Positions 29,333-39,500 of a DNA stretch of 40,072 nt are shown here, piece by piece. Position numbers and translations under genes: made by a program. Location of the stretch: assembly GCF_029946185.1 (NCBI RefSeq), contig NZ_JAQSEA010000139.1:1-40072 (forward strand), in the 5' to 3' direction. Position 1 is the stretch's first letter. Every line of letters starts with the position of its first letter. The DNA comes from Prosthecobacter sp. (lineage in GTDB: Bacteria; Verrucomicrobiota; Verrucomicrobiia; Verrucomicrobiales; Verrucomicrobiaceae). Below the pieces are notes generated by a model. That model worked only from the letters and a program-made list of their open reading frames with translations. It had not been told where the DNA came from and searched no databases.

Positions 29333-29417
29333 CAAGGAGCGGGACTTGCCAAGTGCCAGCCTGTGGAGAATCACACGGCATGAGTCCAGGCCGGGACTTG
29401 GCAAGTCCCGCTCCTTG
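29333..29417. repeat. REP pair 1 (head-to-head palindromic units)
   Basis: Left unit 29333-29357 is CAAGGAGC plus hairpin GGGACTTG-C-CAAGTGCC (one unpaired position). Right unit 29393-29417 is a perfect hairpin plus GCTCCTTG. The spacer is 35 bases. The pair lies between the AraC regulator start and the DUF1080 gene. Confidence 0.92.
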
Positions 29418-29592: not shown

Positions 29593-32500
29593 ATGAAGCA
29601 CTTTCTCTCTCTGCTCCTCCTCAGCACCGCTCTCCACGCGGAGCCGGTTTCCCTCTTCGATGGCAAAACCCTCGAAGGCTGGGACTTCGATCCCAAGATC
29701 TGGCATGTGGAAGACGGCATGATCACCGGCGGTTCCACCACGGAGAAGATCAAGGAAAACCACTTCATCTGCACCAAGAAGAGTTACCAAAACTTCGACC
29801 TCAAGCTCAAGATCAAAGTCAGCGGCGATCCAAAGACCGGCCTGATCAACAGCGGCATCCAGATTCGCAGCCTGCGCGTTCCCGGAGGCGCTCACATGAC
29901 CGGCTATCAGGTCGATTGCGGTGCAGGCTGGTTTGGCAAAATCTATGACGAGTTCCGCCGCAACAAAGTCATCTGGGCCCCTACCCCAGAACAGCAAGCC
30001 GCTCTCGACAAGGCCGTCGATGTCTTCGGTTGGAACGAATACCGCATCCGCGCCGAAGGCCCGCGCATTCAGACCTGGATCAATGGTGTACTTTGCATGG
30101 ACTACACCGAGACCGACAAGAACATCGCGCTCGATGGCCTCCTCGGCCCGCAAGTTCACAGCGGTGGCGTCTGCCTCGTGCAGGTCAAAGACGTGACGAT
30201 CGAAGAACTCCCCGCCACACCCGGAGCACCCACCTGGGAATCGCTCGGCGGTGTCGATGCCGCACGCAAACTCGTCGCCCCGCCGCCAAAACTGCAGGCC
30301 GATGCCGCGAAACCGAAGCGCGACATCAGCTACAACAACGTGCAAGGCACCCCGCTGACTGCGCAGGAGGAATTGAAAAAGTTCCACGTCGCCCCTGGCT
30401 ACGAAGTCGAACTCGTCGTGCAGGAAAGCGAGGGCCTCGGCAAATTCGTCAGCGTTTACTTTGATCAACGCGGCCGCATGTGGACCCAGACCGCGCTGGA
30501 GTATCCCGTCGATTCAAACGAAAACCCCGCCGCTGCGGAGGCCGTGTATGCGACCCGGGGCAAAGACAAAGTGCTCGTCTATCCGCGGGAGTCGGTGAAT
30601 GGGCCGATTCCCGCGGGTGGACTCACCAACCCCACCGTCTATGCGGACGGCCTCGCCATCCCGCTCGGCATCCTCCCCTGGGGCAATGGCGACTCCTGCT
30701 ACGCGCTCCACGGTCACGATCTGCTCCTGCTCAAAGACACCGATGGCGATGGCAAATCCGACCAGCGCGAAGTCATCCTCACCGGCTTCGGCGTGCAAGA
30801 CTCGCATCTATTTCCGCATCAGTTCACTCGTGCACCCGGCGGCTGGATCTGGATGGCGCAGGGCCTCTTCAACAACAGCAAAGTCCACAAGCCAGGCAGC
30901 GATGTCGTGGTCGACTACCCGAAGTGCGGCATGGCACGCATGCGCCCCGATGGCAGCGAATTTGAAATGACCAGCATCGGCCCCAACAACATCTGGGGCC
31001 TCGTCATCACCGGCGAAGGCGAGACCTTCATCCAGGAAGCCAACGACTACGGCTACCCCATCATGCCCTTCCACGAATACGCCTACTACCCCGGCGGCAT
31101 GGAGGCGCTCAAGAAGAGCTATCAGCCCGACTTCCCACCCGCCACCGAGTTCCGCATGGGAGGCACCGGCTTGAGCGGCCTTGCCTTGATCGAAGACGGC
31201 GCACTGCGCGACAAAAAGAACGCGCACACCATGGCCGTCGCCAACCCCATCACCTCAAAGGTTCAAACCCTCGGCATGCAGCGCGACGGTGCCTATTGGA
31301 AGCTCGAACAACTCACCGACCTCATCACCAGCGACGATCCATTCTTCCGCCCCGTCGGCCTCACCAACGGCCCCGATGGCTGCATCTACATCGTCGATTG
31401 GTACAACAAGATCATCTCACACAACGAAGTCCCTCGCGCACATCCTGACCGCGACAAGACGCGGGGGAGAATCTGGCGCGTGAAGCCTGTAAAAAAGGCT
31501 TCCAAGTTCGTTTCCACCATCCCCGATTTCACCAAACTCACCAACGAAGAACTCAATGCTTCGCTCAAAGATGCCCCCCTCGGCAAAACTCAAATAGCCT
31601 GGCAAACGCTCAGCGATAGACATCAGCTAGCAACGAGCCACTGGGCCACGTCTGAGTACGCCTATCCCCGCGAAAGCATTCCGCTGCGCGCCATCGGTCG
31701 CAGCCTGACCGACCATAACATCGCCGATCTGCTCGCCTTCGCCAAGCCCTCCCTCCCCGGCCCACTTGGCCAAAGCTCACGCGGCGCAAAACAAATCCCC
31801 GTGCGCGAAGCCTACGACCGTGAGTTTGAGCGCTTCCTCGTCCGCATGTTCTTGGAGCGTCATCCCGATCTCGTCACCAAGTTCCTCGACTCCGACGCTG
31901 CCGCCAAGCTCCCCATCGAAGCCCGCGTGCTCGCCTCACTCGCTCTCGACTCCAAAGCCAGCGCCTCGCGTGTCGCCAAGCTGCTGCCTCAACTCGACCG
32001 CGCTCCGAATGATGAAGAACTCCTCCGCCTCGCCCAGTTCCCCGCCGAGCCCGGCGTCGGCACGGCTTTGAAGGCTCTGCTTACCAATGAAAAATCACGC
32101 ACGAGTGTCGCCGAAAAGCTGCTGGCTCAACGCATCAAACTCGATGCCGCCAAGATCGCGCCGCTGCTCACGGAAACAGCTCGCGACATGCTGCAAAGCA
32201 GCGATGCCCCAGTCCGCCACCTGGCTCTATCACTTATCGGTGGGTTTCAGCTCACCGCACTCGAAGCAGATCTCGTCGCGCTTCTAACAAGGAGCGGGAC
32301 TGGCCCAGTCCCGACGGGAGTTGGCAACTCCCGATCCTTGGTTCTCAACACCCTGCGCGATCTTCGCAGCGACGCGGCCAGTCTCTTCGCGTCGCTCGCC
32401 AAATCCGATCCTGATCCCCTCACCCGCGAAGCCGCGCTCGAAGCCCTCGCAGCCTCACGCGCACCGGATGCCGCAGCCAAACTTCTCGCGCTTTATCCTG

Positions 32501-33720
32501 AGCTTCAGCCCTCGCAGCGCAAAGCCGCGCTCACCACTCTCGCCAGCACCAAAGCAGGCGCGCAGACCATCGTTACCGCCTTGCTCGACAAAACCCTGCC
32601 GCAGGCCGATCTCGATGGTCCCACGGTCGAGCGACTCGCCACCGTACTCGGCAATGATCCGGCACTCGCAAAGCTCCAGCAGCAACTCGGCGGCATCTTC
32701 CGCGAAGTCTTGCTGCTCGATGGCGAGGACACCGCCATGGTCGATTCCAAGATCACCCTCGACGGCCCCTTCACCATCGAGGCCTGGGTGCGCCTCGCCG
32801 AAGGCATCAGCAATACCGACGGTCTCCTCGGCACGCCCGGCGGTGTCGATATGAATTTCTTCGGCTCCAAGTTCCGCGTGTATGCCGGCTCCGAATTGAA
32901 AGACGTCTGCGTGGCCACCAAACCCATGACGCCTGACCTCTGGACGCACCTCGCCGTCACACGCGATGACAAGAACATCCTCCGCATCTACCAAAACGGT
33001 GAACTGGATGCCACTGGCACCAAGCCAGCACCGGCCAAGTGGGAGAACTGCAAAATCGGTTGGAGTGGTCCGAAGCAAGGCACCGAAGGAGCCATCACCG
33101 AATTCCGCGTATGGAATTCAGCCCGCACCGCAGCCGAGATCCGGGCAAACTTTGATCGCAGCCTCGCATCTCATCCCTCCCTCATCACGGCAGCCTCGAA
33201 ATTCGATAAAGGTGCCCGCATCGCCAAAACCATCGACACTCCACCGCTGCTCACCGAAGAGCAGGCCAAGGCTCTCGACACCAAGTTCGCCCAATTCACC
33301 GCACTCGCGCCGAAGGGCAATGCAGCCAACGGCAAAGTCCTCAGCGCTCTCTGCATGGCCTGCCATCAGATCGGCAACGCGGGCGGCCAGATCGGCCCGA
33401 ACCTCAGCGGTGCCGGTGCCATGGGCCTGGAGGCCGTGCTGCGCAACATCCTCACCCCCAATGCCGCCATGGAGCCCGGCTACCGCATCTACCGTGTGGA
33501 AATGAAAAACGGCGATCTCATCGATGCCTTCTTCGTCAGCGAAGACAAAACTGCCACCATCATCCGCCAGCCCGGCCTGCAGGATCGCCGCCTCGAAAAG
33601 AAGGACATCCGCAGCACCAAGTTCATCCGCCGCTCCCTCATGCCCGAAGGCCTTATCGATGCCCTGCAAGACCAGCAAGTCGCCGATCTCCTCGCCTACC
33701 TGATGACGCTGAAAGGCTAA
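29593..33720 (+). CDS. Secreted multidomain protein: DUF1080, dehydrogenase-type propeller, HEAT, LamG-like, cytochrome c-type domain
   Basis: A 1375-residue exported protein, signal peptide about residues 1-16 (MKHFLSLLLLSTALHA). Domains in order: DUF1080/3-keto-disaccharide hydrolase (18-211; VSLFDGKTLEGWDFDPKIWH, then INSGIQIRS); a propeller of the PVC membrane-bound dehydrogenase type (about 245-640; FHVAPGYEVELVVQESEGLG, DGCIYIVDWYNKIISH); HEAT-like helices (about 690-1030); a LamG/concanavalin-like domain (about 1038-1192; ITLDGPFTIEAWVRLAEG, LWTHLAVTRDD); and a C-terminal heme-binding domain with CMACH at 1254-1258 and a possible Met ligand in PNAAMEPGY. Known only by family, it is probably a periplasmic sugar-oxidising or hydrolysing enzyme passing electrons to its own heme. 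Residues about 899-916 are encoded by an inserted REP pair. The AraC-type regulator is divergent. Confidence 0.92.
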   Translation: MKHFLSLLLLSTALHAEPVSLFDGKTLEGWDFDPKIWHVEDGMITGGSTTEKIKENHFICTKKSYQNFDLKLKIKVSGDPKTGLINSGIQIRSLRVPGGAHMTGYQVDCGAGWFGKIYDEFRRNKVIWAPTPEQQAALDKAVDVFGWNEYRIRAEGPRIQTWINGVLCMDYTETDKNIALDGLLGPQVHSGGVCLVQVKDVTIEELPATPGAPTWESLGGVDAARKLVAPPPKLQADAAKPKRDISYNNVQGTPLTAQEELKKFHVAPGYEVELVVQESEGLGKFVSVYFDQRGRMWTQTALEYPVDSNENPAAAEAVYATRGKDKVLVYPRESVNGPIPAGGLTNPTVYADGLAIPLGILPWGNGDSCYALHGHDLLLLKDTDGDGKSDQREVILTGFGVQDSHLFPHQFTRAPGGWIWMAQGLFNNSKVHKPGSDVVVDYPKCGMARMRPDGSEFEMTSIGPNNIWGLVITGEGETFIQEANDYGYPIMPFHEYAYYPGGMEALKKSYQPDFPPATEFRMGGTGLSGLALIEDGALRDKKNAHTMAVANPITSKVQTLGMQRDGAYWKLEQLTDLITSDDPFFRPVGLTNGPDGCIYIVDWYNKIISHNEVPRAHPDRDKTRGRIWRVKPVKKASKFVSTIPDFTKLTNEELNASLKDAPLGKTQIAWQTLSDRHQLATSHWATSEYAYPRESIPLRAIGRSLTDHNIADLLAFAKPSLPGPLGQSSRGAKQIPVREAYDREFERFLVRMFLERHPDLVTKFLDSDAAAKLPIEARVLASLALDSKASASRVAKLLPQLDRAPNDEELLRLAQFPAEPGVGTALKALLTNEKSRTSVAEKLLAQRIKLDAAKIAPLLTETARDMLQSSDAPVRHLALSLIGGFQLTALEADLVALLTRSGTGPVPTGVGNSRSLVLNTLRDLRSDAASLFASLAKSDPDPLTREAALEALAASRAPDAAAKLLALYPELQPSQRKAALTTLASTKAGAQTIVTALLDKTLPQADLDGPTVERLATVLGNDPALAKLQQQLGGIFREVLLLDGEDTAMVDSKITLDGPFTIEAWVRLAEGISNTDGLLGTPGGVDMNFFGSKFRVYAGSELKDVCVATKPMTPDLWTHLAVTRDDKNILRIYQNGELDATGTKPAPAKWENCKIGWSGPKQGTEGAITEFRVWNSARTAAEIRANFDRSLASHPSLITAASKFDKGARIAKTIDTPPLLTEEQAKALDTKFAQFTALAPKGNAANGKVLSALCMACHQIGNAGGQIGPNLSGAGAMGLEAVLRNILTPNAAMEPGYRIYRVEMKNGDLIDAFFVSEDKTATIIRQPGLQDRRLEKKDIRSTKFIRRSLMPEGLIDALQDQQVADLLAYLMTLKG
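32288..32340. repeat. REP pair 2, inside a coding sequence
   Basis: A compact 53-base pair with almost no spacer. Left unit CAAGGAGC plus GGGACTGG-C-CCAGTCCC; right unit GGGAGTTG-G-CAACTCCC plus GATCCTTG. Both hairpins are perfect although both differ from consensus at paired positions. It is read in frame as about 18 residues (TRSGTGPVPTGVGNSRSL) in the HEAT region of the 1375-residue protein. Confidence 0.93.
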
Positions 33721-33723
33721 CTC

Positions 33724-33816
33724 CAAGGAGCGGCACTTGCTAAGTGCCGCGTAGTGCCCCGCTTTCACCCAAACATTCCAAACATCAAGCCGGGACTTGG
33801 CAAGTCCCGCTCCTTG
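33724..33816. repeat. REP pair 3, upstream of the RAYT gene
   Basis: Left unit 33724-33749 starts 3 bases after the stop of the 1375-residue gene and has hairpin GGCACTTG-C-TAAGTGCC (paired change from consensus). Right unit 33791-33816 is a perfect hairpin and ends 15 bases before the RAYT start codon. Confidence 0.93.
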
Positions 33817-33831
33817 ACGCCCCCCGCTCGA

Positions 33832-34458
33832 ATGAAGTTCTTCAATCCGTTCGAAGACATTCGTATCACGCGACACAACCTGCCACACTGGCAGCAGCCG
33901 GGAGCCACTTACTTCATCACCTTTCGCATGGCCGATTCACTGCCTGCGGAAATGCTCAGAGAACTCGACTCCGAGCGAGAGCGCTGGCGGTTGCACCACC
34001 CGCCCCCGCTTTCACCTGAGGATGAAGCCGAATATCACCGTCTGTTCTCCGCTCGTGTCGATCAGTGGTTGGATGATGGCCACGGCTCCTGTTTCTTGCG
34101 CCAGTCAACTCTGCGAGGAGTCGTCAAGGAATCGCTGAATTTCTTCCATGACCAGCGCTATGAGTTGTTATCCTACGTCATCATGCCCAATCATGTGCAC
34201 GCGCTTGTCGTACTGCATCCTGACTGGCTTCTGGAGAAAGTGCTCTACACATGGAAGCGTCGGACGGCGGGTGTCATCAACGAAACACTCGGCGTTCAAG
34301 GCCAGTTTTGGAAGCACGATTACTTCGACCGCCTCATCCGCGATGGCGACCACCTGAGAAACGTCATCCGCTACTTCCGGCGCAATCCCACCAAAGCCCA
34401 CCTGATAGAAAGTGACTTCACCCTCTGGGAAAGCGAACTAGCCAAGGCGGTTGCGTAA
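33832..34458 (+). CDS. REP-associated tyrosine transposase (RAYT, IS200/IS605-like Y1 superfamily)
   Basis: A 208-residue single-strand DNA endonuclease of the Y1/HUH superfamily. ATG 33832 is chosen because the frame upstream (from 33754) crosses a REP unit. The HUH motif is His121-Val-His123 in YVIMPNHVHALVVLH. The catalytic tyrosine is most likely Tyr164 in FWKHDYFDRLIRDGDHLRNV, the usual place for RAYTs, followed by IRYFRRNPTKAHL. The N-terminus MKFFNPFEDIRITRHNLPHW, then YFITFRMADSLP, is also typical. RAYTs cut and join REP palindromes in vitro in E. coli and are held responsible for REP dispersal. All active-site residues are present, so the enzyme may be active. REP pairs lie 15 bases upstream and directly after the stop. 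Confidence 0.94.
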   Translation: MKFFNPFEDIRITRHNLPHWQQPGATYFITFRMADSLPAEMLRELDSERERWRLHHPPPLSPEDEAEYHRLFSARVDQWLDDGHGSCFLRQSTLRGVVKESLNFFHDQRYELLSYVIMPNHVHALVVLHPDWLLEKVLYTWKRRTAGVINETLGVQGQFWKHDYFDRLIRDGDHLRNVIRYFRRNPTKAHLIESDFTLWESELAKAVA

Positions 34459-34548
34459 CAAGGAGCGGGACTTGCCAAGTCCCGACCTGGCGTTTTAGAA
34501 AAGCCCTCTCAAACTTCCCAACCAGGACTTGGCAAGTCCCTCTCCTTG
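34459..34548. repeat. REP pair 4, downstream of the RAYT gene
   Basis: Left unit 34459-34484 starts on the first base after the RAYT stop and is a perfect consensus hairpin. Right unit 34524-34548 has AGGACTTG-G-CAAGTCCC (one mispair) plus TCTCCTTG. The spacer is 39 bases. The unit ends 14 bases before the next start codon. Confidence 0.93.
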
Positions 34549-39369: not shown

Positions 39370-39500
39370 CAAGGAGCGGGACTTGCCAAGTCCCGGCTTG
39401 GAATCAACGCTCTCAAAGCTCCTCGGCGGGCCGTTGTGGCATTGAGGGGGTGCACTTTCCCAACATATGCTCCATGGCACTTAGCAAGTGCCACTCCTTG
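39370..39500. repeat. REP pair 5, filling a convergent intergenic region
   Basis: Left unit 39370-39395 is a perfect consensus hairpin 7 bases after the FGE-fold stop. Right unit 39475-39500 has GGCACTTA-G-CAAGTGCC plus ACTCCTTG, with one paired change, and lies 3 bases beyond the ApaG stop. The spacer is 79 bases, the longest of the five pairs. Confidence 0.93.

Follow-up and report, generated by a model that had tools for sequence, protein, structure and literature searches.

A GGAG-footed REP-RAYT locus in Prosthecobacter and related RAYTs read in frame with host genes

RAYTs, the tyrosine transposases associated with repetitive extragenic palindromic elements (REPs) and also called TnpA_REP, combine an HUH motif with a single tyrosine in a YxxxNP motif in the GTAG-type systems of E. 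coli and Stenotrophomonas (groups 2 and 3 of PMC8266576). In these systems REPs surround the RAYT gene and pairs of REPs occur in the genome, each REP consisting of a short foot and a hairpin of 7-8 bp with a 3-nt loop, as in REP-Sm. Published feet read GT[AG]G (PMC6006769, PMC8266576, PMC2817692), although some families have the degenerate forms GYRG or GTMG (PMC3733652). Clustering of REPs near the RAYT gene has been reported for some species (PMC2817692). Here, we describe a locus of this architecture in a 40,072-nt stretch of Prosthecobacter sp. (Verrucomicrobiota; contig NZ_JAQSEA010000139.1 of assembly GCF_029946185.1; hereafter the window), where a RAYT gene lies between REP pairs whose hairpins are preceded by (CAA)GGAG and not by the GT[AG]G that marks a GTAG-type REPtron. 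Because of this CAAGGAG foot we file the system as a RAYT by its protein rather than as a GTAG-type REPtron: it is a known kind of system with a changed recognition foot. Our analysis supports the REP-RAYT system that an earlier reading of the bare sequence (the original prediction) had proposed for this verrucomicrobial genome. Its remark that Proteobacteria supply the best-known RAYTs is reasonable, but verrucomicrobial REPs (Opitutus terrae) are already in print (PMC3733652).

Among described classes, the window protein is reminiscent of TnpA_Y1 subclass 2.4 (Bertels group 4), a likeness judged by motifs against the printed table of PMC6006769: both have the NHVH, W and Y-x-x-x-NP motifs, both are spread over many phyla, and subclass 2.4 likewise tolerates in-frame REPs, there inside the RAYT gene itself. 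The REPs printed for that subclass have GT[AG]G feet, whereas those of the window have GGAG. The window protein further differs from GTAG-type RAYTs in carrying Asp166/Arg167 in place of Glu100/His101 of E. coli TnpA_REP, and in extra helices at approximately residues 39-82.

A RAYT gene bracketed by covarying hairpins

The RAYT gene (33832..34458, + strand) encodes a 208-aa TnpA_REP-type HUH-Y1 transposase. Its product matches Pfam Y1_Tnp (PF01797) with 32.5 bits, and when the PDB is searched with a profile built from 18 relatives, the top match is 4er8, the TnpA_REP of E. coli (E 1.6e-7). An AlphaFold model (predicted local distance difference test, pLDDT, 94.5) likewise has 4er8 as its best fold match (E 2.9e-6, template-modelling score 0.48/0.60). 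The key residues are His121/His123, Trp160, the catalytic Tyr181 and Asn185. Both histidines, which the original prediction had recognized as an intact HUH motif, are invariant in a 64-row alignment. Its candidate for the catalytic residue, Tyr164, was mistaken: this position aligns with Phe98 of 4er8, whereas Tyr181 (in RYFRRNP, the YxxxNP motif) is invariant in 64/64 aligned sequences and aligns with Tyr115 of 4er8. The window protein is thus a RAYT by its HUH motif and single YxxxNP tyrosine in a Y1 fold. The closest other gene found in the same genome shares 48% protein identity. That genome holds 18 Y1_Tnp matches (among L001-L024), five of them paralogues of the window RAYT, and those paralogues that have REPs carry differing ones (GGAG, GTAG and others).

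Two head-to-head REP pairs bracket the RAYT open reading frame. The upstream pair comprises an outer unit (33724..33748, +) with a GC-to-CG exchange at stem position 3 and an inner unit matching the consensus exactly (33792..33816, -); the downstream pair comprises another exact inner unit (34459..34483, +), which directly adjoins the RAYT stop codon, and an outer unit (34524..34548, -). Further pairs lie at 29333..29357 (+) and 29393..29417 (-, exact), at 32288..32312 (+, TA to GC) and 32316..32340 (-, CG to GC) within a dehydrogenase-like gene, and at 39370..39394 (+, exact) and 39476..39500 (-, GC to CG, four mismatches to the consensus). The window thus holds, as had been predicted, ten units of one family; they form five head-to-head pairs around the RAYT gene, and all four double-sided stem changes named at that time are present. 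The position of the last unit, given as 39475, had to be corrected. Each unit spans 25 bases with the consensus CAAGGAGC+GGGACTTGCCAAGTCCC, in which the foot CAAGGAGC is followed by the hairpin. Allowing up to three mismatches, nine units are found in the window and none in 100 dinucleotide shuffles. The realistic fold of the hairpin is a 7-bp stem with the 3-nt loop GCC, for which an 8-bp stem with a 1-nt loop was dropped.

The whole 6.19-Mb assembly contains 21 REP units (15 distinct), as solo units or pairs, and 10 of the 21 lie on the window's 40-kb contig, clustered around the RAYT gene over a stretch of approximately 10 kb. In a gap-free alignment of the 21 units, 96.2% of stem cells are paired, and in five of the seven stem pairs both sides have changed. 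On each of five covariation measures the observed value exceeded that of all 500 shuffles, and sliding the partner column by 1-3 positions lowered pairing to 17-54%, with double changes in no more than one pair. The claim that the hairpin itself is conserved, first drawn from the window, therefore holds on twice as many copies and under a statistical test. The foot CAAGGAG is unpaired, yet exact in 17 of the 21 units and changed at one base in the other four, in keeping with the near invariance predicted for the outer tag. A second hairpin between CAAG in the foot and CTTG in the stem was considered and found unsupported: the stem of unit 32288 now reads CTGG, and CAAG is kept.

The low copy number and vertical inheritance typical of a RAYT are both found here. 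The gene lies between the same two neighbors, the dehydrogenase-like gene and a 406-aa open reading frame, in G040, G041, G005 and G019; in G002 it occupies the same place but is split over two contigs. REP units flank it on both sides in the four intact orthologous loci, and in two of the four each flank carries an inverted pair. Across 96 related genomes, of which 49 have matches to the REP model (at most 81 candidates scored per genome), we compared copy number within family f1, taking a RAYT of at least 60% identity as an orthologue. The seven genomes with an orthologue hold 9-56 REP copies (median 22), against a median of 3.5 in the 52 genomes without (Mann-Whitney p 7e-5): RAYT presence predicts REP abundance.

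Several observations weigh against this account of the locus. The protein scores 69.2 bits against NCBIfam NF047646 (REP_Tyr_transpos), below the cut-off of 80. The 60%-identity orthologue of G049 is located elsewhere and is not syntenic. Nine of the 52 orthologue-less genomes hold nine or more REP copies, and one of them, G033, holds at least 81, with no REP unit (up to five mismatches) within approximately 1.5 kb of its nine Y1 loci. The expectation that copies occur only alongside an orthologous RAYT therefore survives as an enrichment and fails as a rule; since G033 and others hold copies without an orthologue, REPs outlive the RAYT or have another source. Many of the G033 copies (L097-L108, L112-L116) are exact and lie in pairs of approximately 200 bp or in direct arrays, in a genome that is 99% complete.

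A changed foot and the segment that may read it

The word GGAG is not found in the available text of the papers that print RAYT feet (PMC3733652, PMC6006769, PMC2817692, PMC8266576). Related RAYTs keep the CAAGGAG foot while their stems differ entirely. The near-invariant outer tag is the best candidate for the guide that, as the original prediction suggested, the enzyme may read. An automatic call on 136 RAYTs assigned GGAG to 45, GT[AG]G to 33, GGTG to three, both tags to one and other tags to 16, and found no repeated hairpin for 38. Of the free-standing RAYTs with one clear tag, 37 rows carry GGAG or GGTG and 24 carry GT[AG]G. On a bootstrap tree of these 61 rows the tag changes three times, compared with 18.9 times for shuffled labels (minimum 13), and 35 of the GGAG/GGTG rows form a single clade (support 95/83). 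Read from these sequences, the subfamily would have seen roughly one switch of guide between GT[AG]G and GGAG.

Of all positions, 164 shows the strongest link to the tag: it is Tyr in 40 of 44 sequences on the GGAG side and Ser in 20 of 31 on the GT[AG]G side. Tyr164 lies in the tag-reading segment. Position 167 ranks ninth (Arg in 40/44, His in 24/31) and aligns with His101 of the E. coli protein, which is listed among the tag-contacting residues (PMC6006769). Recoding between GT[AG]G and GGAG in the window's clade would most likely have run through the segment holding Tyr164 and Arg167. Three points temper this proposal. By the automatic call, 54 of the 136 RAYTs have no tag or another tag; the link between tag and residues is, on the tree, in essence one event; and in subclasses whose REPs are of the GT[AG]G type, some members have Arg at the position of His101 (PMC6006769). 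Arg167 alone can therefore not be specific, and, given that single event as well, we treat the residue-tag link as a lead rather than proof.

In the published model, A3 and G4 of the foot pair with the CT cut site (PMC8266576). As both bases of GTAG are unchanged in GGAG, cutting at CT is expected here too, and by this analogy the window RAYT probably cleaves at a CT dinucleotide.

REP pairs and whole RAYTs in the frames of other genes

The REP pair at 32288-32340 lies within a gene (29593..33720, +) that matches DUF7133, 3-keto-disaccharide hydrolase and cytochrome c and that we read as a dehydrogenase. Its 53 bp are read in frame as approximately 18 codons of a 1375-aa frame. The orthologues L213 and L207 have a shorter loop without the REP pair, and in none of five orthologues compared did the gene contain a REP unit. 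No empty and filled pair defines the ends of the insertion to the base, the flanks of the 32288 site having diverged, a further point against the overall account of the locus. The gene and its orthologues (L207-L210, L213) also differ by several other in-frame inserts of approximately 10-100 aa. Intragenic palindromic repeats read in frame have been described as REPs in O. terrae and as Rickettsia palindromic elements (PMC3733652). The pair at 32288-32340 resembles these; they encode 20-82 aa, whereas relatives of the window RAYT carry a whole transposase in frame.

Among the RAYT matches listed in relatives, for many of which flanking sequence was retrieved, some lie in frames of approximately 1000-1600 aa. 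Within the subfamily, 40 of 188 distinct RAYT cores sit in stop-less frames that extend for 60 aa or more upstream of the core and 150 aa or more downstream of it, most of them inside host proteins; three of these 40 are NUDIX cases that we do not count as lying inside a host. Pfam recognizes host domains both before and after the RAYT for leucyl-tRNA synthetase (LeuRS), CarB, HsdR, a family-4 glycosyltransferase, a Clp ATPase and an ADH/GFO fusion, as well as for an Eco57I-type enzyme, with a weaker match before the RAYT. Named records add MmeI, exonuclease VII, SNF2, another class I synthetase and a menaquinone enzyme. Examples include L262 (LeuRS), L063, L123 and L256 (CarB), L238, L240, L254 and L273 (HsdR), L130 (Clp), L246 (exonuclease VII) and L285 (SNF2). 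Verrucomicrobia, Kiritimatiellae or Lentisphaerae account for most records with a named host, whereas hosts of the HsdR or Eco57I kind extend to records titled Chloroflexales, Bacteroidota, Ignavibacteriales, Flavobacteriales, Methylomirabilis and Gallionellaceae. In L228, L237, L249 and L276, all with Eco57I hosts, a clear host match is found only after the RAYT, and for L230 (MmeI) and L239 (HsdR, at a contig end) only before it. Two sets of candidates were not counted as insertions: the NUDIX cases L122, L125, L126 and L128, where the NUDIX match lies only after the RAYT, and L065/L129, where an open frame runs beside a secreted protein. With a LeuRS-embedded RAYT as query, matches were found phylum-wide in 86 of 288 genomes; among the 150 matches listed, 47 lie in frames of at least 450 aa, with hosts unchecked.

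LeuRS and CarB are essential. LeuRS matches are present in 95 of the 96 related genomes, and a RAYT is inserted in five of them, from five genera and three families, at model position 360-366, which we take to be a loop of the editing domain. Host sequence continues on both sides of the insertion (part of the N-terminal host sequence of L198 reads N), and four more named cases bring the distinct LeuRS cases to nine. No second leuS appears among the matches listed in these five genomes (at most eight candidates scored per genome), which are 86-96% complete, so that a second copy may have been missed, a point on the other side of the balance. In CarB the RAYT sits at model position 473-481; this is seen in two of the 96 genomes, neither with a second CarB among the matches listed, and in three named loci. 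Unless another copy of LeuRS or CarB went unnoticed, these cells get by with the chimera. At carB model position 473-483, gaps of approximately 90-130 bases occur in the family match in G061, G033, G067, G019 and G011, at the site that holds the RAYT in G077 and G080; these are perhaps REPs. LeuRS also has a second in-frame insert site near model position 520 (L205, L121), with repeat-like linkers of approximately 25-35 aa and no RAYT.

Could the embedded RAYTs be dead remnants, or assembly or annotation artefacts whose frames are open by chance? Nearly all the records are metagenome assemblies, and in the four NUDIX cases and L065/L129 the open frame looks to be next to a gene and not within it. 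Against this, host domains lie on both sides in approximately ten host families, the LeuRS cases are nine and distinct, and L228 comes from a record not labelled as a metagenome-assembled genome, although its host evidence is weaker. The enzymes also appear intact: the HUH motif is kept in 40/40 embedded RAYTs and the tyrosine motif in 39/40, compared with both motifs in 140 of 148 other cores. For the embedded pair L117/L132 the ratio of nonsynonymous to synonymous divergence (dN/dS) is 0.09 in the RAYT and 0.14 in the host part after it, and four free RAYT pairs give 0.09-0.13; the ratio was not used for L126/L128, L117/L118 and L025/L027, where RAYT synonymous sites are saturated. We consider dead remnants or such artefacts unlikely. 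In L126/L128, where the RAYT precedes a NUDIX gene, that saturation stands beside a NUDIX part identical in protein, pointing to either replacement or very fast evolution of the RAYT. Start codons were counted for 38 of the 40 embedded RAYTs (L131 and L197 lack an anchor): 34 have no ATG in the 25 codons before the start of the conserved domain and 20 have no ATG, GTG or TTG. As only these 20 lack all three, a separate internal start is possible in some. Repeated hairpins lie within 500 bp in 16 of 21 embedded cases, including the four NUDIX cases.

On a quick tree of the 40 embedded rows, L239, L224 and 45 random free rows including the window RAYT, the host label changes 17 times, where shuffled labels change 30 times (minimum 26); a lineage thus tends to remain in one host gene. 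On the same tree, however, L242 (menaquinone gene) and L256 (carB) are sisters, and parsimony counts 14 changes between the free and embedded states. A quick tree of 127 of 136 cores (those below 150 aa, L205, L090 and L079 left out) suggested independent insertions at the one LeuRS loop, a reading we dropped: the approximately unbiased test does not reject a single clade (p 0.74), and the tree constrained to one clade of LeuRS-RAYTs scored 18.3 log-likelihood units higher than the quick tree. Deep branches of the quick trees are therefore unsafe. An AlphaFold model of a LeuRS-RAYT chimera (A4, 13 rows) was uninformative, with a mean pLDDT of 52.6 and the host part unmodelled; its RAYT part mostly reached 72-89.

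Two proposed states of one subfamily

Taken together, these findings are best explained, with a probability of roughly 85%, by a REPtron whose vertically inherited RAYT gene lies between its REPs and whose elements also settle in frame inside proteins. The RAYT most likely binds the single-stranded REP hairpin, would read the (CAA)GGAG foot as a guide and would cut beside it with Tyr181. REP pairs would spread in this way, mostly near the RAYT gene. Elements of the subfamily can also settle in frame, as a REP pair in the window and as a whole RAYT in relatives, the embedded enzyme probably being translated as part of the host protein.

Alternatively, the hairpins may be kept as RNA elements, such as terminators or mRNA-stabilizing stem-loops, with the adjacent RAYT incidental. 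Selection on RNA would conserve pairing just as well, and many REPs near genes have been argued to be transcribed (PMC3733652). It would leave unexplained, however, why the unpaired foot is as conserved as the stem, why units flank the RAYT on both sides in all four intact orthologous loci, why related RAYTs have the same foot with entirely different stems and why nearly half of the genomic units crowd around the RAYT gene; we give this explanation little credence.

Inteins with homing endonucleases are likewise in-frame mobile-enzyme domains at conserved sites of essential genes. The embedded RAYTs might be intein-like and spliced out of the protein, being in frame, in essential genes and at the same position in orthologous hosts, but Pfam scans of the frames (1e-3 or 1e-6) give no intein domain, only Y1_Tnp and host domains. 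No domain for splicing was seen; the inserted RAYT appears to remain part of the protein, and splicing is very improbable. The faintest case is that of an ordinary IS200/IS605 element ending in these hairpins: the HUH-Y1 fold is the same and NF033573 matches with 25.8 bits, but this falls below its cut-off of 55, the tyrosine motif is the YxxxNP of RAYTs and not the IS200 motif printed in PMC6006769, and the gene is single-copy between the same genes across species while many REP pairs lack a gene.

Beyond the REPtron itself, we favor on balance a broader reading, in which a large RAYT subfamily spanning several phyla exists in two states, free between REPs and as unspliced, catalytically intact in-frame domains, with recoding of the guide in the window's clade. 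The proposed hosts of the in-frame state, put forward with the same measured confidence, are essential or defence enzymes: LeuRS, CarB, a second class I tRNA synthetase, Clp, exonuclease VII, HsdR and Eco57I/MmeI types. As part of this reading, lineages would tend to keep one host gene and also hop, as L242 beside L256 suggests. Our searches of open-licence PubMed Central turned up no description of embedded RAYTs. One family survey discarded long fusions (PMC6006769), and its available text describes REPs within RAYTs and, as far as it goes, no RAYT within a host.

If this reading is true, residence in an indispensable gene would shield the element and couple its expression to that of the host, adding a third lifestyle to those of the insertion sequence and the intein. 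The natural sets of RAYTs with two guides would make the rule for the choice of REP and cut site testable by swapping two residues and the bases of the foot. Should the embedded forms be confirmed as single chains, they would represent a mobile enzyme that survives as a tolerated domain of indispensable proteins, and would mark natural domain-insertion sites in LeuRS and CarB.
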